A stretch of DNA of 29,893 nucleotides, taken from a virus. Made by a program: the position numbers and the translations under genes. Of the stretch, positions 4,670 through 29,893 are shown in pieces. The notes below the pieces were generated by a model that was not told the DNA's origin, did not search any database, and saw nothing but the letters and a program-made list of their open reading frames with translations. Each line of letters starts with the position of its first letter. Position 1 is the stretch's first letter. The stretch covers positions 1-29,893 of IMG/VR virus record IMGVR_UViG_3300025276_000142; one strand, 5' to 3'.

Positions 4670-6823
4670 ATGGACAAGTTTGAAACAGACAGCACTGAGA
4701 TTGATCGGAATATGGAAGAGGTTGATTCTTCCTTTGTTGAAGACATGGCCGAGGGTGAGACTGCGGACTCCCCAGTAGGTTCAGTTGTTTCTTTCGTAAA
4801 GGCGAGGTTTAGCAAGGCTGAGACAGCTCGTAATACGGATGAACAACGGTGGGTACGTGCTTATCGTAACTATCGTGGTTTATATGGACCTGATGTAGCG
4901 TTTACTAACACAGAGAAGTCTCGTATCTTTGTTAAAGTAACTAAAACTAAGGTATTAGCTGGATACGGGCAGATTGTAGAGGTTCTTTTCGGTAATAATA
5001 AGTTTCCTATCTCTATTGACCCTACTACATTACCCGAAGGCATTGCAGAATCAGTACATTTCGAGTCTAATCCCGACATGCAGGCTGCTAAAGGTGAGTC
5101 AGCCCCAGAGATTAGCCCAGAAGACGCTAAACTACGCCCCGGTGAGACACTTATAGACCTTCAAGAGCGCTTAGGTGGCCTTAAGCCCAAACTAGAGCCC
5201 GTATCTGAGCTCCTAAAAGAAGGTGAAGGCCGTACAGCTACTGAAGTTACCTTCCATCCTGCTATGATTGCAGCTAAGAAGATGGAAAAGAAGATACATG
5301 ACCAGCTGGAGGAGTCTAACGCCTCTAAGAAGCTACGTACAGCAGCATTTGAATGTGCTTTGTTTGGAACAGGCATCATGAAAGGCCCGTTTGCAATAGA
5401 TAAAGAGTATCCGCACTGGGATGACGAAGGTAACTACAAACCTCGTATTAAAACCACTCCAGCATGTGATGCAGTTTCTATATGGAACTTCTACCCTGAT
5501 CCAGACGCTAATAACATGGATGAAGCTGAGTTTGTTGTTGAACGGCACAAGATGTCACGTTCACAACTTCGTTCTCTTAAGCGTCGTCCCTTCTTCCGTA
5601 GTAATGCTATCGATATGGCCCTTACTCAGGGTGAGTCATACACGAAGGAGTGGTGGGAGCAAGCAATGGAGGACGATAGTGGTGACACTTCTACTGAACG
5701 CTTTGAGGTACTAGAGTTCTGGGGATTTGTAGATCGTGATATCCTAGAAGACCATGATGTAACTATACCTAATGAGCTTAAGAAGGCTGATCAACTCAAT
5801 GTTAATATCTGGGTATGTAATGATCAAGTCCTTCGTTTAGTAATGAACCCCTTCAGCCCACAGATCATCCCATACTATGCAGTCCCTTACGAAGTAAACC
5901 CTTACTCCTTCTTTGGTGTAGGTCTTGCTGAGAATATGGACGATACACAAACACTCATGAACGGTTTCATGCGTATGGCTGTAGATAACGCTGCACTGTC
6001 CGGTAACCTTCTCATTGAAGTTGATGAAACTAACCTAGTACCGGGTCAAGACTTAAGTGTGTACCCCGGTAAGGTCTTCCGTCGTCAAGGAGGTGCACCC
6101 GGCCAAGGTATCTTTGGGACCAAGTTCCCTAACGTATCTAATGAGAACATGCAGATGTTTGATAAGTCTCGTCAGTTAGCTGATGAATCAACGGGTCTAC
6201 CTAGCTTCTCTCATGGGCAAACTGGTGTATCCGGTGTTGGTCGTACTGCTAGTGGCATCTCCATGCTTATGTCTGCTGCTAACGGCTCTGTTAGAACTGT
6301 TATCAAGAACGTTGATGATTATCTCCTTGGGCCAATCGGTAAAGCCTTCTTCTCCTTTAACATGCAGTTCGATTACGACCCAGAGATCAAGGGAGACCTA
6401 GATGTTAAGGCCCGTGGTACATCCTCACTGATGGCTAACGAAGTACGTAGCCAGCGCCTAATGCAGTTCTTGGGTGTCGTGCAGAACCCAGCACTTGCTC
6501 CATTTGCTAAGATGGACTACATCATTCGTGAGATTGCTGAGTCAATGGACCTTGACCCTGATAAAGTAGCTAACTCCATTAGTGAAGCTGCTGTGCAGGC
6601 AGAGGTACTTAAGAAGTTCCAAGAACAGAATCCCCCTCCGGCTCCTCCTCCGGCTGACCCTAGTGCTGCCCCTGCTGCACCTACTGGCGGCGCTCCTGCT
6701 GGTAACATAGGAACAGGTGGTGCACCGGTACCGGGTGAGCAAGGCTTCTCAGGAAACACCGGAGGTGGTGGTGGCGAACTAGAAGCTCAGCTAGCTCAGT
6801 ACCTAGGAGGCGCTGGTGGATAG
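4670..6823 (+). CDS. Portal protein
   Basis: The product is 717 residues. A charged N-terminus is followed by FVKARFSKAETARNTDEQRW (about 41-60), VTKTKVLAGYGQIVEVLFGN and the FGTGIMKGPF, FYPDPDANNMDEAEFVVERH and PFSPQIIPYYAVPYEVNPYS segments typical of podovirus-type portals. It forms the dodecameric DNA gate that holds TerL and the tail. Residues about 654-717 are a Pro/Ala/Gly-rich flexible tail (PPPAPPPADP, then GNTGGGGGE and AQYLGGAGG). AAGGA sits about 7 nt before ATG 4670. The stop overlaps the GTG of the collagen-like gene by 8 nt. Confidence 0.92.
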   Translation: MDKFETDSTEIDRNMEEVDSSFVEDMAEGETADSPVGSVVSFVKARFSKAETARNTDEQRWVRAYRNYRGLYGPDVAFTNTEKSRIFVKVTKTKVLAGYGQIVEVLFGNNKFPISIDPTTLPEGIAESVHFESNPDMQAAKGESAPEISPEDAKLRPGETLIDLQERLGGLKPKLEPVSELLKEGEGRTATEVTFHPAMIAAKKMEKKIHDQLEESNASKKLRTAAFECALFGTGIMKGPFAIDKEYPHWDDEGNYKPRIKTTPACDAVSIWNFYPDPDANNMDEAEFVVERHKMSRSQLRSLKRRPFFRSNAIDMALTQGESYTKEWWEQAMEDDSGDTSTERFEVLEFWGFVDRDILEDHDVTIPNELKKADQLNVNIWVCNDQVLRLVMNPFSPQIIPYYAVPYEVNPYSFFGVGLAENMDDTQTLMNGFMRMAVDNAALSGNLLIEVDETNLVPGQDLSVYPGKVFRRQGGAPGQGIFGTKFPNVSNENMQMFDKSRQLADESTGLPSFSHGQTGVSGVGRTASGISMLMSAANGSVRTVIKNVDDYLLGPIGKAFFSFNMQFDYDPEIKGDLDVKARGTSSLMANEVRSQRLMQFLGVVQNPALAPFAKMDYIIREIAESMDLDPDKVANSISEAAVQAEVLKKFQEQNPPPAPPPADPSAAPAAPTGGAPAGNIGTGGAPVPGEQGFSGNTGGGGGELEAQLAQYLGGAGG

Positions 6824-7781
6824 CAAGTTACTAGCAACTATCATCGCTGTAGCACGGAAAGAGTCACAGGCAAACCTCAGTGAGTTCTCCAAACTAGAAG
6901 CTAAGATAGAGGGCCAGCTTAGAGCTCTACACAAAGAAGATCCTATAACGGAGACACCCAACTTTGTAACATACAACGGGTGCCTTTACTGTACTTGGCC
7001 CTCCGGTAGGTCATCTAACCTAGGCAATGTGCTTGGGAAGGACGGTAAGGACGGTACAGCGGGTAAAGACGGTTTAGACGGTGTAGCTGGCCTAAATGGT
7101 AAACAAGGCACTGACGGGGCTCCTGGAGCCTCTGGGAGGCATGGGGCTGATGGTCAGGCCGGTAAGACAGGACCACAGGGTCTTCAAGGCCCTAAAGGAC
7201 CAGTTGGTAACAAAGGCGACAAGGGTATCTCTGGACTACCCGGTATTGACGGTGCTGACGGGAAGGACGGTGCTGACGGTTTTGACGGTGAAGACGGGGT
7301 AGGTATATCTAAAGTTTGGATAGACGATAATTACCACTTGACAATACAGTTAACTTCTGGTATAATATTAGATGTTGGCTACACTAGAGGTAAAACCGGT
7401 GTTGCATCGTCTAAAGGTGGCAGAGTAACGGGCTACGGAGGCGGTGGAGGCGGTGGTACTAGCAACGGTCTTGTTTCGGCTGCCTATGTAGGTGATAACC
7501 TTATACTTACACAAGCCAGTGGTAATACTATTAATGCTGGTCCTATACCTGTTACCACCTATCTTAGATGGATAGACTACGTATCTAACTGGAAAACAAC
7601 ACCTACAGAAATAGGTGCAACAGCTGATGGAGCTGTTTACCAATACGAGTATGCAACCAGTACCTTCTATAGACTGGTTCCTAATGCTGCCTCCCTTCTT
7701 AGAGATTCTTTCTACACTAATTGGGACGCTCCTACTTCAGTTCTTTCTGGTTTTATACTAGACAGGTCTATGGCCGTATAG
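6816..7781 (+). CDS. Collagen-like virion/fibre protein
   Basis: The product is 321 residues. A helical N-terminus (1-40) and a small domain with C56/C59 (GCLYC) precede about 30 uninterrupted Gly-X-Y triplets, residues 74-163 (GKDGKDGTAGKDGLDG at the start). After that come VWIDDNYHLTIQLTSG, a Gly-rich linker (GYGGGGGGG, 207-213) and a beta-rich C-terminal domain. Phage collagen-like segments form trimeric rods in tail or head fibres, so this is likely a trimeric appendage with an N-terminal anchor and C-terminal head. It starts at GTG 6816, 5 nt after AGGAGG (6805-6810), inside the portal gene. It contains an internal promoter. Confidence 0.85.
   Translation: MDSKLLATIIAVARKESQANLSEFSKLEAKIEGQLRALHKEDPITETPNFVTYNGCLYCTWPSGRSSNLGNVLGKDGKDGTAGKDGLDGVAGLNGKQGTDGAPGASGRHGADGQAGKTGPQGLQGPKGPVGNKGDKGISGLPGIDGADGKDGADGFDGEDGVGISKVWIDDNYHLTIQLTSGIILDVGYTRGKTGVASSKGGRVTGYGGGGGGGTSNGLVSAAYVGDNLILTQASGNTINAGPIPVTTYLRWIDYVSNWKTTPTEIGATADGAVYQYEYATSTFYRLVPNAASLLRDSFYTNWDAPTSVLSGFILDRSMAV
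7338..7366 (+). promoter_or_regulatory. Perfect consensus promoter inside the collagen-like gene
   Basis: TTGACA (7338-7343), exactly 17 bp, then TATAAT (7361-7366), with TGG immediately before for an extended -10. The bases also encode TIQLTSGIIL of the collagen-like protein. Transcription would start near 7373, giving a message for the tandem fibre genes from 7796 onward with a roughly 420-nt 5' leader. The match to consensus is complete, but use in vivo is inferred. Confidence 0.7.
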
Positions 7782-13660: not shown

Positions 13661-13867
13661 ATGCAAATCAAACGACTAGTAAACGATAAGGAACTATGGG
13701 ACTCCTTCTGTAAAGAGATAGATAATCGTATCGCCTTTGCTTATAAACAACTAGAGCAGAGAGATGAGTCTCTAGAGCTACATCGCCTACAAGGTGAAGT
13801 TAAAGCGTTACGAAGTCTCAAACAGCTACGTGACAAAGTAAACAACTCTAACTCTGAGGTTCTCTAA
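13661..13867 (+). CDS. Small helical protein of unknown function
   Basis: The product is 68 residues, mainly helical and charged: MQIKRLVNDKELWDSFCKEI, then AYKQLEQRDESLELHRLQGE and LKQLRDKVNNSNSEVL. I recall similar tiny proteins between structural genes of podoviruses, without known role. They may be assembly factors or minor virion components. AAGGAG lies 9-10 nt before ATG 13661. Its stop overlaps the next ATG (TAATG at 13865-13869), so translation is coupled to the long low-complexity gene. Confidence 0.7.
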   Translation: MQIKRLVNDKELWDSFCKEIDNRIAFAYKQLEQRDESLELHRLQGEVKALRSLKQLRDKVNNSNSEVL

Positions 13868-15846
13868 TGGATAAGCCTCTGATGGTTAAACCTAAAGCCC
13901 GTCCTAATCTTAAGAGCGGTGAGACAACACCGAGTGGTCGCACTATCTGGAAGGATAAGGACACTGGTGAAGCTTACTCAGAACGTTCTACTACCTTTGA
14001 TATCGAAGGTATCTGGTACACAATGCCAACCGTTGCTGAAGATGGTTCTCAGTACTCAGAGGAGTCCGTTAGGGCCTACGTTATAGGGAATGGACCAGTG
14101 GACTTTATAACTGGTGAAGAGCTTCCTACTTTTAGCAGTAAGAAGGAAGCTGTAGACTACGCTAAGAGCCGGTCGGATACTAGGCGGCCTAACGAAGAAG
14201 CTACTGGATTTGCTCAAGGAGGAGTAACTAAGATGAAGTATAAGTATGAAGAAGGTGGCCTAGCTACAGACGGTCTGAGTATTGACCCTGTATCTGGTAA
14301 CGATATTCCTCTTGGATCTAACGCTGAAGACGTACGCGATGACGTAGATGCTAAGCTATCCTCCGGTGAATACGTAGTACCTGCTGACGTAGTGAAGTAC
14401 GTTGGTGTTGCACAGCTAGAGAAGCTAGTTAATAAGGCTAAGGATGGTCTAGAAGGTATGGCAGAGAACGGTCGTATTGGTGGCGAGCCTGTTGGTGAAT
14501 CAGAAGAAGTTGTAATGACTCTTGGTGGTGACCTCAGCACTCTGGATGGCTATGCCACTGGAGGTATGGTACCCGGTACAGATATCAATGGTATTATCGA
14601 TCGTGTTAAAGCTGCTGCAATGAAAGACCCTTCTATTATTAATATGCTGAAGGCTAAGGGTGTGTTTATTGAAGAACCACAACCACAAGGTCAGGCACAA
14701 CAAGCAGCTATGTCACAGGGTGCTGTACCTAAGCAAGCTGCACCACCTAGTATGCAGGGTCAGAACAATCCTGCTGCTTTCGCTGACGGTGGTATGGTAC
14801 AGCCTAGTGCTTCTACAGGCTTCAACCCATACGCTTTTACACCCGGTTTCTCTATTGAGGCAGGTGCAACAGGTCAGGCTCCCGCAGGTAGTGGTATGGC
14901 CCCTCCTCCCCCTCCTCCCGGTCCTGACGGCCAGACTTGCTCACCGGGATACGGATGGGATTCTTCTAAAGGTATGTGTGTCCCTATGACCATGGCCGCT
15001 GCCCCTGTTACCGGATCACCTCAGTCTAATAATGAAAACGGTACTTCTGATCAAGGGATGGCTCCTCCTGTAAACCCCAACGAGTGGATGTCTAAGTTCG
15101 ACTACACTAACCCAGAGACTTTAACTTCTGAAACAATGACTTCGTTAGGCTTTGTTGATCCTGATGCTAAACCTAAGAAGATTGGTTTAATAGAGTCTAT
15201 TGCCAATGGTATCCTAACGAATATGGCTGGTGGTTTGATTGGTAAAGCTATGGCTGTTAATAACGTTGCTGAAGCTAATGCTAACGCTGCTATACTACGT
15301 AGTAAGGGTCTAGTTGCAGAAGCTGATAAGATACAATCTCAGGTTGCTGTATACGAAGAGGAAAAGGGTATCTCAAACTGGCCTACAGCTATGCGTAGTG
15401 GAGAAGGCATGACTAAACGGGCTATGGAGTCCGACAATGCTAGCAGCTGGAGTAACTGGGGTGCGGCACCTGCTGCTGCTGCTGTACCTGCTGCTGTTGT
15501 ACCTGATGCTGTTGTACCTGATGCTGTTGTACCTGATGCTGTTGCTCCTAACAAGGATAGGGGTAACTCAACCCGAGATCTTGCTAATCGCCAACAGCAA
15601 GCTGATGCTAGAAACAGGGCTTCACAGAAAGTTGCAGCTTCCGAGAAAGCAAAAGGACTTGGTCCTGATAGCCCCGGTGGGCGTACTCGGACAGACACCA
15701 CTGGTAGGAAGATAGAGACGTTCTCTTCTAAGCTAGCCCGTGGTGGTGGCTTTGCTAAAGGTGGTTTAGTTAACCCTCGTGCTGCTAAGGCAGTTACTCC
15801 TAAAACAAAGAAGAAGACTAATAAGAAGGGTTTGGGCCAACGCTAG
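13867..15846 (+). CDS. Long low-complexity virion-type protein with repeated GG(V/L/M) motifs
   Basis: The product is 659 residues. Residues about 20-104 form a compact domain (TIWKDKDTGEAYSERSTTFD then WYTMPTVAEDG) seen at the front of other phage virion-associated proteins. LSSGEYVVPADVVKYVG (164-180) follows. Aromatic-A/E-x-GG-hydrophobic boxes occur at FAQGGV (115), YEEGGL (127), YATGGMV (229), FADGGMV (305) and FAKGGLV (629). Between them lie Gln/Ala/Pro-rich disordered parts, a membrane-like AILRSKGLVAEADK helix region and three VVPDA repeats. It has no enzyme motif. It is probably a virion or assembly protein; the boxes may be partner-binding motifs. Confidence 0.7.
   Translation: MDKPLMVKPKARPNLKSGETTPSGRTIWKDKDTGEAYSERSTTFDIEGIWYTMPTVAEDGSQYSEESVRAYVIGNGPVDFITGEELPTFSSKKEAVDYAKSRSDTRRPNEEATGFAQGGVTKMKYKYEEGGLATDGLSIDPVSGNDIPLGSNAEDVRDDVDAKLSSGEYVVPADVVKYVGVAQLEKLVNKAKDGLEGMAENGRIGGEPVGESEEVVMTLGGDLSTLDGYATGGMVPGTDINGIIDRVKAAAMKDPSIINMLKAKGVFIEEPQPQGQAQQAAMSQGAVPKQAAPPSMQGQNNPAAFADGGMVQPSASTGFNPYAFTPGFSIEAGATGQAPAGSGMAPPPPPPGPDGQTCSPGYGWDSSKGMCVPMTMAAAPVTGSPQSNNENGTSDQGMAPPVNPNEWMSKFDYTNPETLTSETMTSLGFVDPDAKPKKIGLIESIANGILTNMAGGLIGKAMAVNNVAEANANAAILRSKGLVAEADKIQSQVAVYEEEKGISNWPTAMRSGEGMTKRAMESDNASSWSNWGAAPAAAAVPAAVVPDAVVPDAVVPDAVAPNKDRGNSTRDLANRQQQADARNRASQKVAASEKAKGLGPDSPGGRTRTDTTGRKIETFSSKLARGGGFAKGGLVNPRAAKAVTPKTKKKTNKKGLGQR
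15493..15549 (+). repeat. 15-bp tandem repeat encoding VVPDA
   Basis: The unit gctgttgtacctgat occurs three times perfectly (15493-15507, 15508-15522, 15523-15537), followed by a changed fourth copy starting gctgttgctcct. It keeps reading frame, adding five residues (A-V-V-P-D) per copy, in a Pro/Ala linker of the low-complexity protein. Perfect copies point to recent slippage, so copy number may vary between relatives. Confidence 0.9.
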
Positions 15847-21777: not shown

Positions 21778-22086
21778 ATGGCTAATACCTTTCTAAACTA
21801 TACATCAGCTAATGTTGGTGTAACACCGGTAACTACTTATACTGTCGGAGCAGCTACTACAGCAGTTGTCATAGGATGTACTGTCGCTAACGTAACTGCA
21901 GCTCAGATTATAATCGATGTACAAGTAGCTGGTGTTTACCTACTCAAGGGAGCTGCTATCCCTTCTGGAGCAAGCTTAAGTGTTCTGGATGGTAAGATAA
22001 TCCTTGAAGCTACAAACACTGTTGTTGTAACATCTGATACCACTACTTCTGCTGATGTGGTCCTAAGTGTTCTGGAGCAAACATAA
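21778..22086 (+). CDS. Small beta-sandwich protein, probable fibre/virion accessory
   Basis: The product is 102 residues, nearly all small hydrophobic and Thr residues: TYTVGAATTAVVIGCTVANV, AAQIIIDVQVAGVYLLKGAA and IILEATNTVVVTSDTTTSAD. This alternating pattern fits a single jelly-roll or Ig-like domain with no catalytic residues. It is sandwiched between fibre genes, with AAAGGA before ATG 21778 and a TAATG overlap with the S74 fibre gene, so a fibre-attachment, trimer-cap or decoration role is likely. Confidence 0.65.
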   Translation: MANTFLNYTSANVGVTPVTTYTVGAATTAVVIGCTVANVTAAQIIIDVQVAGVYLLKGAAIPSGASLSVLDGKIILEATNTVVVTSDTTTSADVVLSVLEQT

Positions 22087-23513
22087 TGTCAGGTTATATC
22101 GGTAATATACCAACACCACAGGCTACACAGTCCCGTCAGAACTTTATAGCTACAGCTGGGCAGACTAGCTTCGCTACCATCGGGTACACTCCTAACTTCC
22201 TAGACGTGTACCTTAATGGTAGTCATCTTTTAAATGGCACTGACTACACAGCAACTAATAGCTCTGACGTAGTTCTTACGGTAGCTGCTGATGCCGCTGA
22301 TGTTATTGAGGTTATCTCTTACACGACCTTTCAAGTACTAGACCAGTCATTGCTTGGTACAACTACAGTGGTTGACCTAGACGTAACAGGCGTCCTGACC
22401 ACCACGGCTGCGACTGTGTTTAACGGTGGCATTACAATGCCGGATAATGCCAGAACCATCCTTGGCGATGGGTCTGACTTACAGATTTACCATGACCCTG
22501 CAGGTCCATCCAACTATATTGAGGCTACAGCAGGCGAAGGCGATTTAGTCCTTAAAGCAGGTAATCAAATACGGCTTCAACAGTCTGATGGAGATGACCT
22601 TGCTACCTTCAATGAAGATGGTTCCGTCCAGCTTTACTACGACGACGCTGTAAAGATTGAAACTAGCAGCACAGGCGCAGGCATTACGGGTAGGTTAGAA
22701 ACCTCTGCCAATAACAACGATGGCGCAAAGGCAAACTACATACGCATCACTGACACTGATGTAACTGCAACAGAGGGTAATCACCAAGGTGGAATAGAGT
22801 TCTTCAGCAATGACGTTACTCCAGGTATTTCTGCAAGCATTGAAGTCGTGTATGCAGGCGCTGGCGGCGGCGGTCAGATTACTTTTAACACAAATGCTAC
22901 AAGCCAAGGCACTCTAACGGAAGCGGTAAGAATAGACGAAACAGGCTCCTTGCTTGTGGGGACTGTCTCTACCCCAGAGAATGGGTCTTCGGGCATTGAG
23001 TTAGATCCGCTTGGATTTATCAGGCTGAGTCGTGTAGGGAGTACCACTAAGACGCACGCTGTTTTTGACAACAGCAACGGTACTGTCGGCAGTATTACAA
23101 CTTTAGGAACAGCCACAACCTACGCTACATCCTCAGACTATCGCTTGAAGACTGACGCACAGCCAATGACAGGTGCATCTGCCCGTGTCCAAGCACTGAA
23201 CCCAGTGAACTTCGAATGGATCGTAGACGGTGCTCGCACAGATGGTTTCCTTGCACATGAAGCACAGGCAGTTGTTCCAGAGGCTGTCGTAGGCGCTAAA
23301 GACGCCATGAAAGATCAGAGGTATGAAGTTACCCCAGCGATCATAGACGAAAACGGAACTGAGACAACGCCAGCAGTCATGGGTACTCGCAGTGTACCAG
23401 ACATGCAGGGAATTGATCAGAGCAAGCTAGTACCTTTGCTGACTGCTGCACTGCGAGAAGCACTCACTAAGATTGATGAGATGGAAGTACGCATTGCAGC
23501 CCTAGAAGGATAA
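22086..23513 (+). CDS. Tail fibre/spike with C-terminal S74 intramolecular chaperone
   Basis: The product is 475 residues. An N-terminal beta domain (FATIGYTPNFLDVYLNGSHL) is followed by a repeated shaft (ILGDGSDLQIYHDP; GEGDLVLKAGNQIRLQQSDG; DLATFNEDGSVQLYYDD) and, from about 349, TSSDYRLKTDAQPMTGASAR and NFEWIVDGARTDGFLAHEAQ. The latter is the Peptidase S74/endosialidase chaperone domain. S350 and K355 match the Ser-Lys dyad, so self-cleavage just before S350 would free a ~126-residue chaperone ending in a coiled coil (EMEVRIAALEG) after trimerisation. The HxxA/H391 region fits the family. It binds host surface structures; the receptor is unknown. Confidence 0.88.
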   Translation: MSGYIGNIPTPQATQSRQNFIATAGQTSFATIGYTPNFLDVYLNGSHLLNGTDYTATNSSDVVLTVAADAADVIEVISYTTFQVLDQSLLGTTTVVDLDVTGVLTTTAATVFNGGITMPDNARTILGDGSDLQIYHDPAGPSNYIEATAGEGDLVLKAGNQIRLQQSDGDDLATFNEDGSVQLYYDDAVKIETSSTGAGITGRLETSANNNDGAKANYIRITDTDVTATEGNHQGGIEFFSNDVTPGISASIEVVYAGAGGGGQITFNTNATSQGTLTEAVRIDETGSLLVGTVSTPENGSSGIELDPLGFIRLSRVGSTTKTHAVFDNSNGTVGSITTLGTATTYATSSDYRLKTDAQPMTGASARVQALNPVNFEWIVDGARTDGFLAHEAQAVVPEAVVGAKDAMKDQRYEVTPAIIDENGTETTPAVMGTRSVPDMQGIDQSKLVPLLTAALREALTKIDEMEVRIAALEG

Positions 23514-23606: not shown

Positions 23607-24032
23607 GTGATCGTAGATAGGTATAGGGCTGTAGGGGATGGTATAGAACTACTAACTAAAGGAGATACACACTCTAAGTATACTCCAAGTGAAGTAATCT
23701 CCTATCTCCTACTCCCTATCAACACTAACAAGATTAGACTATACTATGTAGATGATAAACCTATAGGTCTAGTTACTTGGTGTTGGTTATCACCTACTAA
23801 AGCTATTAGCTTCCTAGAAGATAGTTATACTCCTACTGAAGATGATTATAAACTAGATGACCCCGGTGGAGACTACCAACTCTGGGGCCTAGAATTCATA
23901 GCCCCTTATGGTCACACTCCTCAGATGATGAGGACTATAAGGAGAGAATACAAAGAACTGTATGGAACCACAACGAGTGTCCACTTCCGCAGGTTCTACG
24001 ATAGGAACAAGTTACACAAGAGGATGTTCTAA
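23607..24032 (+). CDS. HlyC-type lysine acyltransferase (RTX toxin activator family)
   Basis: The product is 141 residues. It matches the HlyC/ToxC family (PF02794 by recall): catalytic His at H22 in GDTHSKYTPSEVISYLLLPI (HlyC H23 in SPLHRNWP), then RLYYVDDKPIGLVTWCWLS and DYQLWGLEFIAPYGH. HlyC Asp92 is replaced by E96 and the Asp after PFG by H103. The family transfers acyl chains from acyl-ACP to lysines; no RTX toxin is in this window. The start is GTG 23607: an in-frame stop at 23595 excludes an earlier one, and AGG lies 8 nt upstream. It sits 2 nt before the helical-repeat gene. Its substrate is unknown. Confidence 0.85.
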   Translation: MIVDRYRAVGDGIELLTKGDTHSKYTPSEVISYLLLPINTNKIRLYYVDDKPIGLVTWCWLSPTKAISFLEDSYTPTEDDYKLDDPGGDYQLWGLEFIAPYGHTPQMMRTIRREYKELYGTTTSVHFRRFYDRNKLHKRMF

Positions 24033-24034
24033 GA

Positions 24035-26899
24035 ATGTATACCCCTTTTTCAATACAGAGGCACTTACACCCACGTCAGTCTGGTCTAATGACTTTTGGT
24101 GGAGGTGGTGCTGATGCCGCAGTCCCCGGCGTCCCTGTCACACCCGCAGTTGTCCCTGATACTCAGGCTCAGATTGATGCGCAAGCTATTTCTCAAGCAG
24201 CGACAGACCGTCTAGATGCTACGAATGCTGCTAACGCTCTTGCTGAGGAAACTGCTGCTGCAGCGGCTGAAGCTAAGAGGGTTGCTGAAGAGGCTACTGC
24301 GGAGACCCGTGCTGCAGCGGCTGCTGCCAAAGCACAAGCTACATCTGACGCTGCTGGAGCTATGCAGACAGCCTCTGTCACAGACCCTGCCTCTCTTGTC
24401 ACAACAGCTCCAGTATCTACTATTAATACTAATGCTACTGGTACTTCTATTGACGCTACTGCCGGTCAACTTACTACTGACGCCCCACAGGTAAATGTAG
24501 ATGACACATTCGGAGCAGCCTCTGTAGACCCTACTGTATCTGCTGCTGCAGTACGTGCTGAAACATCAGCCCTAGCCCCTGTGCAGGGTACTGTAGCTCC
24601 TGAAGCACAAGTCACTGCTGCTCAAGCTGAGTCGTCACCAGAAGCTATGGCTACTGCTGCTGGTTTCGATGCTCAGTTCCTACAAGAGGTACAAGCTGGT
24701 ACTCGTACCGTATCTCCTGACGAGATGACAAGGTTTGCTGAAGCTAATAACATACCAGTAGCTGAAGCTGCAGAGATGGTAGGTCAGTACCAGAACGTAA
24801 CTGCTGCTACCTTCGAAGATCAGACACCTGAGGCTATAGCACAGGACGCATACACTCTAACACCTAGCCAGATTGCACAACAACAAGCAACAACAGTCCA
24901 GCAAGCTGCTACTGCCGCTGAGTACCCTACAGCTGAGGCTGCCGCATCTGACTGGCAGTCTACTATTCAAGCTGCACAGGGGTCTATTGCTGCTAATGAA
25001 CTAGTCAATGCTAATGATGTTGTAGGTGCCGCCACAGCTGTTACTGCTGTAGCTGCAACCATGTCAGCACTAGATACTAACTCAGTGGCTCAAGCTGCAC
25101 AAGGTAGCTTCTCTCAGTCTGCCTTAGCTCAAGCTGCACAAGGTACTGTACCTGCTTCGGCTACTGTCCAAGGGCAGATGGAAAGCCTTATGCAACAGTT
25201 TAATAACGGTACCCCTGCGTGGGCTGCTGGTGGCATGAGAGCCGCTAACGCATCTATGGCTGCTCGTGGTATGGGTGGTAGCTCAATGGCTGGGGCTGCT
25301 ATTATACAGTCTGTCATGGAGTCTGCAGTACCTATTGCTGCCCAAGATGCCCAGATGTTTGGTCAGATGAACTTGACTAACCTTAACAACCGCCAACAAG
25401 TATCTTTGACTAATGCTGCTGCACAACAGAACATGGAGCTGGCTAACCTAAGCAATCAGCAACAGGCTGCTATGCAGAACTCAGCTAACTCCTTTGCCCT
25501 CCAGTCTCAGAACCTATCTAATACACAGTCTACTGTTATAGCTAACGCCCAGTTTAAGGCAGCATTACAGAACAAAGTTATTGATGTAAAGACCCAGACA
25601 TCTTTGGCTAACGCTGCTAAGTATGCTGAGATGAATCAGATCAACTTGAACAACAGGCAGCAGGCTGCTATACAGAACTCATCTCAGAACCTTCAAGTCA
25701 ATATGGCTAATCTATCTAATGAACAGCAGTCTGCCCTTAGTAACCTGCAGGTCCGTGCTTCTCTGATTGGTCAAGAGTTATCTAACGAACAGCAGATGTC
25801 TGTTCTCGCTACTACTCAAGACTTCCAACGTGCTAACTTTGATGCCTCTGCTAAGCAGCAGGCTTTCCTACAGGATGCAGCAGCTAAGGCTTCCCTTGAA
25901 GGTAAGTCAATGGACATCCGCCAACAGACTCAGTTGTTTAATGTTTCTTCTCAGCTAGAAGAACGTAAGATAGAGTTAACCAACGAACAACAAACATCTA
26001 TGTTCAACTCCACCAATAAGTTGAGTATCAGTATGGCTGAGATGTCTAATCGTCAACAGACTGTATTAGCTAATGCACAGATCGAAGCTGCACTACGTGG
26101 CCAAGAGATGAGCAACAAGCAACAGTCAGCTGTGCTCAATGCAGCTAAGTACGCTGAAGCAGCTAATATGACATTCACAGCTGAGCAGAACGCTGCCCTT
26201 AGTAACTCTCAGATGATGCAGACTATTGGTCTAAGTGAGATGTCTGCTAAGAACACTGCTGTACTGCAGAATGCAGCTACTACTGCTAACATGGACATGG
26301 CTAACTTAAACAACCGTCAACAAAGCGCTGTACTCAACGCACAGTCCTTCCTAGCCATGGACATGAAGAATATGGACATTGCCCAGCAAACGTCTATGTT
26401 TAAAGCTCAGAGCAACATACAGTCGATCTTCACTGACCAAGCAGCTGATAACGCTGCCAAGCAGTTTAACGCCGCTAGTGAGAACCAGACTAATCAGTTC
26501 TTTGCTAACATGAGCATGCAGGTACAACAGTTTAATGCTGGTATGACAGTTCAACGTGAACAGTTTAACGCAGAGAACAGCTTAGTGGTAGCACAGGCCA
26601 ACGCGCAGTGGCGTCAGAATGCGACTACTATTAACACTGCTGCTCAGAATGAATCTAACCGTGCTGCCGCCTTAGCTACTAATAGTCTAACGGACCGTAT
26701 GGTTGACACTGTCTGGCAGCGTGAGCGTGACATAATGGACTATGCTTTCCGCCAGTCTGAGAGTGCAGCTGATCGTTCTGTACAGTTCTTTCTAGCAGAT
26801 AAAGCAGATCAAATGTCTAAGTATCAAGCGTCTCAGGCAGCGAGTGCTGCTGATAAACAAGCTAAGGGCTATATCCTTTCTAAGTTATTAGGTTTTTAA
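24035..26899 (+). CDS. Giant helical repeat protein, probable internal virion/ejection protein
   Basis: The product is 954 residues. An Ala-rich helix (about 45-112), a long disordered Ala/Thr/Pro part, and helix-forming VAQAAQGSFSQS/LAQAAQGTVPAS repeats lead to GTPAWAAGGMRAANASMAAR. Residues 450-801 are sixteen consecutive 22-residue repeats with consensus L-S-N-x-Q-Q-x-A-x-x-N and no insertion, then 11-residue QFNA repeats to about 863. The C-terminus is ADKADQMSKYQASQAASAAD and GYILSKLLGF, an amphipathic membrane-like end. Hendecad periodicity implies an extended alpha-helical bundle. Internal core protein, ejection channel or tape-measure-like roles are possible. AGAGGA precedes ATG 24035. 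Confidence 0.75.
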   Translation: MYTPFSIQRHLHPRQSGLMTFGGGGADAAVPGVPVTPAVVPDTQAQIDAQAISQAATDRLDATNAANALAEETAAAAAEAKRVAEEATAETRAAAAAAKAQATSDAAGAMQTASVTDPASLVTTAPVSTINTNATGTSIDATAGQLTTDAPQVNVDDTFGAASVDPTVSAAAVRAETSALAPVQGTVAPEAQVTAAQAESSPEAMATAAGFDAQFLQEVQAGTRTVSPDEMTRFAEANNIPVAEAAEMVGQYQNVTAATFEDQTPEAIAQDAYTLTPSQIAQQQATTVQQAATAAEYPTAEAAASDWQSTIQAAQGSIAANELVNANDVVGAATAVTAVAATMSALDTNSVAQAAQGSFSQSALAQAAQGTVPASATVQGQMESLMQQFNNGTPAWAAGGMRAANASMAARGMGGSSMAGAAIIQSVMESAVPIAAQDAQMFGQMNLTNLNNRQQVSLTNAAAQQNMELANLSNQQQAAMQNSANSFALQSQNLSNTQSTVIANAQFKAALQNKVIDVKTQTSLANAAKYAEMNQINLNNRQQAAIQNSSQNLQVNMANLSNEQQSALSNLQVRASLIGQELSNEQQMSVLATTQDFQRANFDASAKQQAFLQDAAAKASLEGKSMDIRQQTQLFNVSSQLEERKIELTNEQQTSMFNSTNKLSISMAEMSNRQQTVLANAQIEAALRGQEMSNKQQSAVLNAAKYAEAANMTFTAEQNAALSNSQMMQTIGLSEMSAKNTAVLQNAATTANMDMANLNNRQQSAVLNAQSFLAMDMKNMDIAQQTSMFKAQSNIQSIFTDQAADNAAKQFNAASENQTNQFFANMSMQVQQFNAGMTVQREQFNAENSLVVAQANAQWRQNATTINTAAQNESNRAAALATNSLTDRMVDTVWQRERDIMDYAFRQSESAADRSVQFFLADKADQMSKYQASQAASAADKQAKGYILSKLLGF
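25382..26437 (+). repeat. Sixteen exact-length 22-residue (66-bp) helical repeats
   Basis: Reading from L450 of the 954-residue protein, sixteen units each exactly 22 residues follow each other, for example LNNRQQVSLTNAAAQQN..., LSNEQQSALSNLQVRAS..., MSNKQQSAVLNAAKYAE.... Positions 1 (L/M), 3 (N), 5-6 (QQ), 9 (hydrophobic) and 11 (N) are the most constant. The DNA is diverged, so selection, not recent slippage, keeps the period. Confidence 0.9.
26459..26623 (+). repeat. Hendecad (11-residue) QFNA repeats following the 22-mers
   Basis: Five 11-residue units: KQFNAASENQT, NQFFANMSMQV, QQFNAGMTVQR, EQFNAENSLVV, AQANAQWRQNA (residues about 809-863). They continue the helical phase of the 22-mers (22 = 2 x 11) with a different consensus, suggesting one continuous alpha-helix of about 414 residues. 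Confidence 0.85.
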
Positions 26900-26912: not shown

Positions 26913-27605
26913 ATGACTACAGGTGCTTTCGCATATCGCAAGAACTTAGAACAGGCCCGTAAGGCTCTCTTGGACCGCGGTGATACTCAGTATAAGACCC
27001 CCTCAGCTAAGGAAGGCTTGGACTCACAGCAAGGCCTCATGCGTCCTCAGGCTCGTCCTACTCCAGAGGCTGGAGGTCTAGTATCTGGCATCGGCTTAGC
27101 CCTCATGGAATCAATGGGGGCCCCTGTCGCTCGTCCCGATTACTTTGATCCACAGGCACCTTCACCTGAAGGTACTGATCGTCCCTCATCCCGTAGGGAT
27201 GCTACTGCAAACTCCTTTCGTGACCGTTTGAAACGTTCCGAGAGTAGTGGTAATAGTGAGATACAGATTCAGTTAGAAGATGGTCGCACAATGACTGGTG
27301 CTTATCAGTTTGGTGATGCTCGTCTGAAGGACTACAAGAAAGCAAACAAGGTTAAGTTCACTACAGAAGCCTTCCGTAAAGACCCTGAGTTACAGGAAGA
27401 AGTATTCCAGTGGCACATGGCAGATATTGATCGTGTAATTAAGAAACTACCTAAGGCCAAGGGGTTATCGCAAGATGGTCTTCGTGCTGTAGCACACTTA
27501 GGTGGTAACGAAGGAATGATGAAGTACGTTAATACAGGTGGTAAGCACAACCCAGCTGATAAGTTTGGGACTAGGCTGTCCGACTACTACGCTAAGTTCA
27601 AATAA
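26913..27605 (+). CDS. Virion-associated lytic transglycosylase (SLT-like)
   Basis: The product is 230 residues. A flexible Pro-rich N-terminus (about 1-95) precedes a goose-lysozyme/SLT-like domain: RLKRSESSGN with probable catalytic E110 (ESSG 110-113), MTGAYQFGDARLKDY (127-141) matching the G-x-Y-Q-F motif, and AVAHLGGNEGMMKYVNTGG (192-210) matching the A-x-x-G-G substrate motif. It would cleave glycan strands during genome entry. It is placed between internal-virion genes rather than next to the holin, which favours an entry enzyme over the lysis enzyme. TAGGAG precedes ATG 26913. Confidence 0.8.
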   Translation: MTTGAFAYRKNLEQARKALLDRGDTQYKTPSAKEGLDSQQGLMRPQARPTPEAGGLVSGIGLALMESMGAPVARPDYFDPQAPSPEGTDRPSSRRDATANSFRDRLKRSESSGNSEIQIQLEDGRTMTGAYQFGDARLKDYKKANKVKFTTEAFRKDPELQEEVFQWHMADIDRVIKKLPKAKGLSQDGLRAVAHLGGNEGMMKYVNTGGKHNPADKFGTRLSDYYAKFK

Positions 27606-27620
27606 TAAGGATTGATAACA

Positions 27621-28160
27621 ATGATGATTCCCGGCCAGTCCCTGACATCAGAGCCAAAGAATGCTCCATACGAAAACCCACCTGAGATGACTAACCCTGA
27701 AGATGTTGTCTTCTGGCACCTAGACAGCCTCTCAGAGCCCGATAAGATAGAAGCCTTACTAGATGCTATGGAACTTGGTTTAGACGTTGTAACGCTCACT
27801 GAGGGCATCCTACGGGGTGCTGTGGCTGAGGGAAGGCATACTATTGATGTGTCCCTGATCGTAGCTCCTGTTATACATGAGTTTATCAAGACTACAGCTG
27901 ATAAGGCCGGTATTGATTACGAAGAAGGTCTCCCTGTTGATGACAAAGAGGAACGTCTTGACATTAAGTATAAGATCAATGAGCATAAAGCTAGGAAGAT
28001 GATTGCTGAGTTTGAAGGTAAAGAAGAAGAAGAGGACATGGAGGAGGCCCCTATGGAGGCGGCTATGCCTGTTCAAGATGAACCTACGGTAGACGAAGAG
28101 ACTCCAGCTGCATCTGCAGGTCTGATGTCCCGTCCATCTAACTTAGAAGGTGATGTATAA
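27621..28160 (+). CDS. Acidic structural/virion protein of unknown function
   Basis: The product is 179 residues from ATG 27621, with AAGGA (27607-27611) 9 nt upstream; TTG 27612 directly abuts that site and is unlikely. It has MIPGQSLTSEPKNAPYENPP, PEDVVFWHLDSLSEPDKIEA, LLDAMELGLDVVTLTEGILR and VSLIVAPVIHEFIKTTADKA, then an acidic disordered tail (EEEEDMEEAPME). I recall relatives among structural genes of marine phages, sometimes in T4-like ones. Its helical core and position suggest a minor virion component. It ends in a TAATG overlap with the next gene. Confidence 0.65.
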   Translation: MMIPGQSLTSEPKNAPYENPPEMTNPEDVVFWHLDSLSEPDKIEALLDAMELGLDVVTLTEGILRGAVAEGRHTIDVSLIVAPVIHEFIKTTADKAGIDYEEGLPVDDKEERLDIKYKINEHKARKMIAEFEGKEEEEDMEEAPMEAAMPVQDEPTVDEETPAASAGLMSRPSNLEGDV

Positions 28161-29893
28161 TGTCGTTTTGGTCTGGTGTTGTAAAAGGTATGGAGTCTAA
28201 TCAGGCTCAACGTAACACGGAAGCTCAGCGTGAGGAGCGCGAGGCTGCTCGTGAAGAGGCTACTAAGTGGCAGGAGAAGATGTTTGAGTACACTTCTAAG
28301 AGAGAGGCTTTGCTCGACGAACGGGCTCAGACTGCCCTTGACTTAGCGAATAGTCGTTTTGACTTAACTGAGGCAAGGTCTGATGCTGCTCTAGCTTTAG
28401 AGCAAACTCGTTACGAGGAAACAGCTAAGCTGACTGCAGAAAACCTTGCAGCGGAACTGGCCCATAGAGCTAGTCGCGACAAAGCTGGAGATGAGAAGGA
28501 CCTAAAGGCTTGGGAGTTGGAAGTCAGGAAGTTCGAAGTTAGCAAAGGATCAGTTGAGTCTTCTCAGAAGAATGCTGACCGTATCTTTACTCAGTCGGTT
28601 GCTGAGTTTAACGCGCAGACTAAGATTTACACAGCTGATAGCTTACGTAAAGATAGTGCTGAAGCCCGTGCTGTTGCTGAGGGTCTACGCCAAAAGGAAC
28701 GTGATAGAATCGGTGATGACGCAGCTAAGGCTAACTTTGACAGGAGAATCGAGGAGTGGGACGATCAAGTAGAGCAAGAGAGAAAGAGACTTGGTCTTCT
28801 ACAGAGTGCTGAAGTCCGTGCAGTGGATGCGTCAAGACTTAACCGTACCGAGATGCTTTTGAAACTGATGCCTACTAATATGATTGATAGTCTGGGTGGT
28901 GAGACGCCTAGTGGTGGTGATGACGAGATGACTATGAGTGTTAAGGCTATGCAGGTTGGTGGTAATGAGTTTAGTGCTCTACTAGCTGAAATGGGTGAAG
29001 ACGAGCAGAGTTCTGACTTCTTCAAAGCCGCAGCTAAAAGCCCCGCTGCTCAAGCTACTATCATGAGCTTTATGAAAGCACAGGCTAAGAAGAGTAATAC
29101 CATTAAACTAGAGGATATGCCTAAGTACTTTAAGTATCTTGGTACTGTTAAAGGTAAGGGTGAGAAAGAAGCTAAAGAGTTCTTAGAAACTATTATGAAT
29201 GGTGATAATAACCTAGGTGATGTAGACTCAACCGTTAAGGGTCTTATGGTTCTAAAGAACCTAAAGGCTACTGAGGAGTTGTTTGTACAGATAAGTGCTC
29301 CTTCTAGTATTACAGACAAGAATGCTCAGGTTGCATTCTGGCAGGATGCTATTGAAGTTGAGGCCCGACTAGCTACAGATAATCTTCCAGCTGAGCAGAA
29401 GGCTACTGTAAATGACGCCTTGGCTATGCTGCGCCGTCCAGAAACTAAGAATAAAGGTATAGGCGTATTAGCAAAGATGGGCTTCGGTCGTATAGCTGCT
29501 ACAGACGGTAATATGATGGAAAACTCAATCATTGGGAGTTTCTATACTAGTGATCCTACTACCTCTGGCCCTGCTTCTACTGCTTCTGACCTTGATGGTG
29601 GTAACGTTGTTAACCAGAGTGCTATTGATGCTGATATTATAGCTTCTGATCAGTCGACTAGCTTCGATTCATGGGATGCAGTTACTGCTGCTCGTAAGGA
29701 AGGCTTCACTGGTAACGTAAATGTAAAGGGTGTTGTGAGGTTCGTACCTCCTCTAGAACCGAACGCAACTACCGCAGGGAATGTACCTGGCAGTACTGTC
29801 GAAGAAGGTATACCCGGTCTAGAGTCTGCTGTAAAGGGGTATGCTGTAGCACCCGAAGGTGCCTCTAGGTCTGCTCAGTTGAGAGAGTCACAA
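28160..29893 (+). CDS. Long coiled-coil internal virion protein (3' partial)
   Basis: The frame is open for 578 codons from ATG 28160 to the right edge with no stop, so the C-terminus is missing. It starts MSFWSGVVKGMESNQAQRNT. Residues about 10-225 are highly charged and helical (REEREAAREEATKWQEKMFE; ALALEQTRYEETAKLTAENL; RRIEEWDDQVEQERKRLGLL), a long coiled coil. A helical, less charged middle has VKAMQVGGNEFSALLAEMGE and KLEDMPKYFKYLGTV. The final part is Ser/Thr/Gly-rich. This is the style of large internal core proteins of podoviruses; no enzyme motif is seen in the visible part. Confidence 0.8.
   Translation, partial: MSFWSGVVKGMESNQAQRNTEAQREEREAAREEATKWQEKMFEYTSKREALLDERAQTALDLANSRFDLTEARSDAALALEQTRYEETAKLTAENLAAELAHRASRDKAGDEKDLKAWELEVRKFEVSKGSVESSQKNADRIFTQSVAEFNAQTKIYTADSLRKDSAEARAVAEGLRQKERDRIGDDAAKANFDRRIEEWDDQVEQERKRLGLLQSAEVRAVDASRLNRTEMLLKLMPTNMIDSLGGETPSGGDDEMTMSVKAMQVGGNEFSALLAEMGEDEQSSDFFKAAAKSPAAQATIMSFMKAQAKKSNTIKLEDMPKYFKYLGTVKGKGEKEAKEFLETIMNGDNNLGDVDSTVKGLMVLKNLKATEELFVQISAPSSITDKNAQVAFWQDAIEVEARLATDNLPAEQKATVNDALAMLRRPETKNKGIGVLAKMGFGRIAATDGNMMENSIIGSFYTSDPTTSGPASTASDLDGGNVVNQSAIDADIIASDQSTSFDSWDAVTAARKEGFTGNVNVKGVVRFVPPLEPNATTAGNVPGSTVEEGIPGLESAVKGYAVAPEGASRSAQLRESQ

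Follow-up and report, generated by a model that had tools for sequence, protein, structure and literature searches.

The closest described relatives of the protein analyzed here are gp25 of phage HMO-2011 (phage1322_25) and its counterparts in CRP roseophages, HTVC pelagiphages, CHOED, Slicky01, phiM6 and RHph phages. These are homologous to it over the N-domain, the helix and the C-terminal end, and they share its gene position and the 11/22-residue unit. HMO-2011 gp25 and the relatives in isolates have fewer units and are annotated as "hypothetical protein", in one case as "huntingtin". The literature covered, to which the HMO-2011 genome paper did not belong, gave no function for gp25 or its relatives. 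In all, tblastn detects relatives in 25 phage records, which are HMO-2011-like or allied podoviruses with mostly hypothetical annotations, and in hundreds of IMG/VR contigs. The gene order resembles that of SU10 gp20-24 and of T7 14-15-16; the SU10 proteins gp20-24 are in virions and are missing from genome-release particles (PMC9509320).

The window, i.e. the whole stretch of DNA that was analyzed, is a virus record of 29,893 bases from a podovirus of the HMO-2011 type. Its portal and adaptor are of the SU10 type, with Pfam hits to SU10_portal and SU10_adaptor. The coat protein has matches to major-head-protein PHROGs and a further one to P22_CoatProtein that falls short of the curated cut-off. 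The repeat protein is encoded on the plus strand by a 954 amino acid open reading frame at positions 24035–26899. It is followed on the same strand by a 230 aa lysozyme/endolysin-like protein (26913–27605; PHROG 26675), by p182 (27612–28160) and by the start of the next large gene (28160–29893), an open reading frame that is cut by the window end and that the gene order of the relatives places in a gp15-like position. CRP-603 has a Hydrolase_2 protein at the place equivalent to that of the lysozyme-like gene. The p182 gene is a conserved partner: of the 243 relatives with room for it, 242 have it downstream. In the records read, the repeat protein is followed in relatives by a lysozyme or by small genes and then by p182, after which come a protein of ~300–1000 aa and one of ~1100–1300 aa.

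A gene for an HlyC-type lysine acyltransferase (23607–24032; Pfam HlyC, E 3.5e-13) stops just 5′ of the repeat gene. Homologues are present in 20 further fetched loci. Adjacency was measured at 20 places, the window included, and at 14 of them the gene is immediately next to the repeat gene, on its upstream side in some clades and on its downstream side in pelagiphages. The enzyme could be a candidate acylator of a neighbouring virion protein, the independent clades being few. A tail-fibre protein (22086–23513) that is encoded two genes before the repeat gene displays a C-terminal Peptidase_S74 domain of its own. Elsewhere in the window, a collagen-repeat tail-fibre-like protein (6816–7781; Pfam Collagen, E 8.5e-15) immediately follows the portal gene, and a 15-base tandem repeat of 4.8 copies with 96% matches (15473–15544) lies within a 659-aa open reading frame at 13867–15846.

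All parts of the repeat protein are encoded on the plus strand. The N-terminal arm, residues 1–374 (24035–25156), is of low complexity, rich in Ala, Thr and Gln, and hypervariable, with no conservation in an alignment of 19 relatives (A1). Across the relatives, arms are up to ~1,100 aa long and taken together contain 6.4% Pro; DUF4214 is found in the arm of one relative and is not general in the family. The conserved N-domain, residues 375–436 (25157–25342), has the pattern GQ..L...F..G.tPAWAAG..R....M.aRG...SS.A..A....mESA.PIA, in which P394, W396, A397, P433, I434 and A435 are invariant in A1. The predicted continuous hendecad helix spans residues 436–914 (25340–26776) and the C-terminal tail residues 915–954 (26777–26896). 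The HMO-2011 gp25-like family, as defined in this analysis, is recognized by the N-domain invariants, the hendecad helix and W859 and R914 of the C-domain, and the window protein displays all of these. The protein itself matches nothing in Pfam or PHROG. Relatives of solved structure were found neither for A1 or A7 nor for the large downstream protein of two relatives. Foldseek searches with low-confidence models gave no match in the PDB and only four significant matches in BFVD (25–51% sequence identity, both query models being of low confidence), which are likely family members.

The repeat array begins at base 25382, the first base of residue 450 in the 24035–26899 reading frame. Sixteen units of 22 residues occupy residues 450–801 (25382–26437). 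They are followed, with the hendecad phase unchanged, by 11-residue QFNA-type units at residues 802–867 (26438–26635), a part that varies by 11 in relatives. A gap-free division and the identity autocorrelation bear out the first-pass annotation, which had described units of exactly 22 residues from L450 to D801 and 11-mers thereafter up to residue 863, whose last base is 26623. Over residues 450–863 there are 98 matches at lag 22 against 38 expected (z 10.5 versus shuffles); at lags 66, 44 and 11 the matches number 95 (z 11.3), 79 (z 8.1) and 64 (z 4.1). Tandem Repeats Finder did not report the 22-residue array in the window DNA, which indicates that the repeat is old and maintained at the protein level. 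The autocorrelation and the lack of a DNA-level array rule out chance or recent DNA slippage as the origin of the repeat.

The length of this region was compared across relatives. Addition of IMG/VR loci gave 289 non-redundant proteins, in which the distance was taken between an N-anchor (window residue 436) and a C-anchor (window residue 846). This anchor distance takes 28 values from 102 to 850 residues, and 27 of them, covering 288 of the 289 proteins, are congruent to 3 modulo 11. The sole exception (L035, anchor distance 650) has a two-residue deletion. A variable unit length in homologues, the outcome that the first-pass annotation had set against its own reading, is thus not seen; the comparison of repeat number that it had proposed shows that the number of units varies and the unit length does not. 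In 19 relatives the spacing N452–Q784 is always 2 modulo 22 and N806–F844 is always 5 modulo 11, while W859–R914 is 55 residues in 19 of 19 proteins checked. Parsimony on a FastTree tree built from the N-domain, C-domain and p182 (258 rows) requires about 71 length changes, a count that is approximate because it is a parsimony reconstruction and 54 inner branches of the tree have weak support. Seventy of these changes are multiples of 11, and 30 of them of 110 as well. The commonest is exactly 110 (5 × 22), which occurs 19 times on the tree. The window itself, with an anchor distance of 410 against 190 in its nearest kin, is longer by 220. A five-unit (110-residue) super-repeat is visible in the longest members, where identity at lag 110 is 0.38, compared with 0.22–0.28 at lags 22, 44, 66, 88 and 132 and 0.10 in shuffles. 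The longest relative (L157:4268-9529) has a spacing of 850, i.e. 4 × 110 beyond that of the window; its unit consensus is different and less regular, and the 11-residue quantum is retained.

The sequence evidence favours a single continuous hendecad helix of ~480 residues at positions 436–914. From the equivalent of residue 436 to that of residue 914, the 289 relatives have not one Pro in 93,984 residues, against the 6.4% of their N-terminal arms. The constant unit length, the 11-residue quantum and the absence of Pro fit one continuous hendecad helix. The 11-residue unit, a seam at hendecad positions a/d/h and a conserved phase are those of a hendecad coiled coil, and the 3-4-4 spacing of the seam positions (9, 12, 16, 20, 1 and 5 of the unit) continues across unit boundaries. 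Of the 44 turns of the window protein, 25 have Asn at one and the same phase out of eleven, and family-wide position c is Asn in 60% of turns. The hydropathy period of residues 450–801 is 3.665, the hendecad value, with a power inside the shuffled range. An AlphaFold2 model of residues 366–954 is all-helical and of low confidence (mean pLDDT 63, pTM 0.24), with breaks at several unit boundaries; that of one short relative is similar (pLDDT 59).

With the length in nm calculated for a straight helix as (anchor distance + 71 residues) × 0.15 nm, the window helix would be ~72 nm long and those of the family ~26 to 138 nm, an eightfold range of anchor distance. The first-pass annotation had predicted one helix of 414 residues, or ~62 nm. 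Its continuity is supported by the quantised lengths and the absence of Pro, and its extent is revised: the phase persists beyond residue 863 and W859–R914 is constant at 55 residues, so that the helix likely covers ~436–914. The further remark that this length is more than enough to cross a Gram-negative envelope, taken as a conserved design, does not agree with the family range of ~26–138 nm. Moreover CRP-3 and CRP-207, both from strain FZCC0040, have 162 and 217 residues respectively between the P433 and W859 equivalents, thus the helix length is not set by the host envelope. A Gln/Asn core lining a polar channel had also been proposed, from N3, Q5, Q6 and N11 of the unit. The a/d/h seam is made up of unit positions 9/20, 1/12 and 5/16. 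By phase, hendecad h, which is within the seam, falls on unit position 5, a Gln, and on unit position 16, an Ala or a Gln. Q6, N11 and N22 are off the seam, and N3 falls in a second, weaker stripe on the opposite side. Of the four residues named only Q5 is therefore in the seam, and nothing supports a channel.

The oligomeric state is suggested by the C-terminal ends of some relatives. Peptidase_S74 chaperones belong to homotrimers; the abstract on MyRF says likewise. An S74-like C-terminal tail follows the C-terminal region in 20 of the 289 relatives, all with a 146-residue spacing; in CRP-3, L192, L205 and L215, the four relatives that were tested, it scores above the Pfam cut-off. The domain is absent from the window protein in Pfam searches. 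Since S74 chaperones are homotrimeric and such tails occur in some relatives, a trimer is predicted for the family, and it is our best guess for the tailless window protein as well. A wide channel would need more than the three chains that the S74 tails predict. The tail is found in CRP-3 (L017) and in the L192–L240 group, where a cut at the S-D motif would give an end similar to the C-terminus of relatives without the tail.

There is about an even chance that the repeat protein is an ejection protein housed inside the virion and has a trimeric hendecad stalk; its location and role rest on the analogy with SU10, T7, P22 and DEV, and the continuous helix and trimer are what we infer. The quantised lengths, the lack of Pro, the gene order and the SU10-type portal and adaptor speak for this reading. 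Its gene would be the first in the ejection-protein cassette of HMO-2011-type podoviruses. Uninterrupted hendecad helices, most likely three, would lie parallel to each other and form a nearly straight stalk that joins the conserved N-domain to the conserved C-terminal end and whose length depends on how many 22-residue units there are. Evolutionary change in length would be by whole hendecads only, most often by five-unit (110-residue) blocks, because other indels would disrupt the phase of the helix. At infection the protein would exit the head together with the lysozyme and the large proteins of the downstream genes, and would help to lengthen the short tail. Relatives with S74 tails match PHROG 4287 'DNA ejection protein' (SU10 gp21/gp22; best E 1.3e-15 over A7, mainly through the tail), and an S74 tail alone is thus no proof of a fibre. 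Other results count against the ejection reading. In local hhalign comparisons neither the helix nor the N-domain displays significant profile similarity to SU10 gp18 and gp20–gp23 or to T7 gp13–gp15, and the neighbouring large proteins have no detectable homology to solved structures or to the ejection proteins of SU10 or T7. No proteomics data were found. S74 tails are typical of tail fibres, and a straight 72-nm rod would hardly fit in a head of ~65 nm, as in Slicky, or ~70 nm, as in CRP-9 and CRP-13 (PMC10507051, PMC8528129), the longest relative reaching ~138 nm. With a length close to the width of the head, the rod would be bent or unassembled inside it, or else be outside.

An outside position is proposed by a second reading, which is possible and which we hold less probable than not: an external trimeric needle or fibre stalk, whose N-domain docks to the tail, whose coiled coil projects and whose C-terminal end contacts the cell, the S74 domain folding the trimer and then being cleaved off. 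The S74 matches at the Pfam cut-off in four relatives and the motif in 20 of 289 agree with such a stalk, as do the tail-fibre genes immediately upstream, and lengths to ~138 nm suit an outside appendage better than a head. However, tail fibres have a conserved N-terminal dock and a variable C-terminal receptor-binding domain. In A1 the reverse is observed: conservation extends to the C-terminal end, which is without a receptor-binding or adhesin domain, and the N-terminal arm, the expected dock, is hypervariable and appears disordered. This arrangement is the opposite of that in a receptor-binding fibre and counts for the ejection reading. In addition the SU10 needle gp18 shows no similarity, and S74 tails are found in the PHROG 4287 'DNA ejection' profile too.

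It is improbable that the protein is a monomeric 3-11 amphipathic helix on membrane or DNA, like the helices of perilipin 4, synuclein and apolipoproteins. The period of 11/22 residues and the predominance of uncharged polar residues are in keeping with this, and by phase the second stripe, b/f/j, is hydrophobic, if weaker, and faces away from the a/d/h seam. Punctuating prolines however are absent, the seam is narrow and coiled-coil-like with Gln at h, and the S74 tails of relatives indicate trimers. A tape measure, i.e. a ruler for the length of another virion part as in siphophage tails, is very improbable. The large quantised length range at constant unit length is what such a ruler would display, but a long tail is not expected in a podovirus with an SU10-type portal and adaptor. 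A tape-measure role is also disfavoured by the lengths of the next two large proteins, which show no positive correlation with helix length (rho −0.21, n 229; rho −0.01, n 78). A solenoid in which each 22-mer is a helix and a turn, for which the helix breaks of the low-confidence AlphaFold2 model and the N-cap-like 'LSN.QQ' might speak, is hardly credible given that Pro is absent from all 22 unit positions across 1,981 units, that 11-residue insertions exist and that the hydrophobic spacing is uninterrupted at the boundaries.

An eightfold length range, stepped nearly always in exact multiples of 11 residues, would be expected if this virion-type protein of a marine, short-tailed phage is a rod of adjustable length, probably for DNA delivery. 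The strict 11-residue rule is a clean and testable structural prediction, that of one uninterrupted hendecad helix. A wider and rather doubtful suggestion is that a delivery or attachment stalk evolves by a structural quantum, hendecads fixing the phase and the 110-residue (16.5 nm) block being preferred since the bundle repeats there. If true, this would give a natural series of homologous coiled coils from ~26 to 138 nm. As it offers over 20 different stalk lengths among homologues, the series could be used to ask what role length has in phage entry and also why the 110-residue step is favoured.

Among the known systems, gp21 and gp22 of SU10/phiEco32 (PHROG 4287) resemble the repeat protein in their Q/N-rich layout and in their position beside a transglycosylase and two large genes, and some PHROG 4287 members apparently end in S74, like some relatives of the repeat protein. 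They differ in the lack of a long repeat array, and no significant profile match extends beyond the S74 tail. The small membrane ejection proteins T7 gp14, P22 gp7 and DEV gp73 likewise precede gp15- and gp16-like genes, but T7 gp14, the one compared, is 196 aa long, has no repeat and gave no profile match. The needles P22 gp26 and SU10 gp18 have a long trimeric helical stalk, known from the literature and general knowledge, as is predicted for the window protein; SU10 gp18, the only needle compared, is without similarity, and a distal knob or beta-prism was not found in the window protein. The 22-mers of apolipoproteins and the 11-mers of perilipin and synuclein share the 22 = 2 × 11 periodicity, with no relation implied. 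From these the window protein is distinguished by the absence of inter-unit Pro, by its Gln/Asn/Ala-rich composition and by its coiled-coil-type seam.
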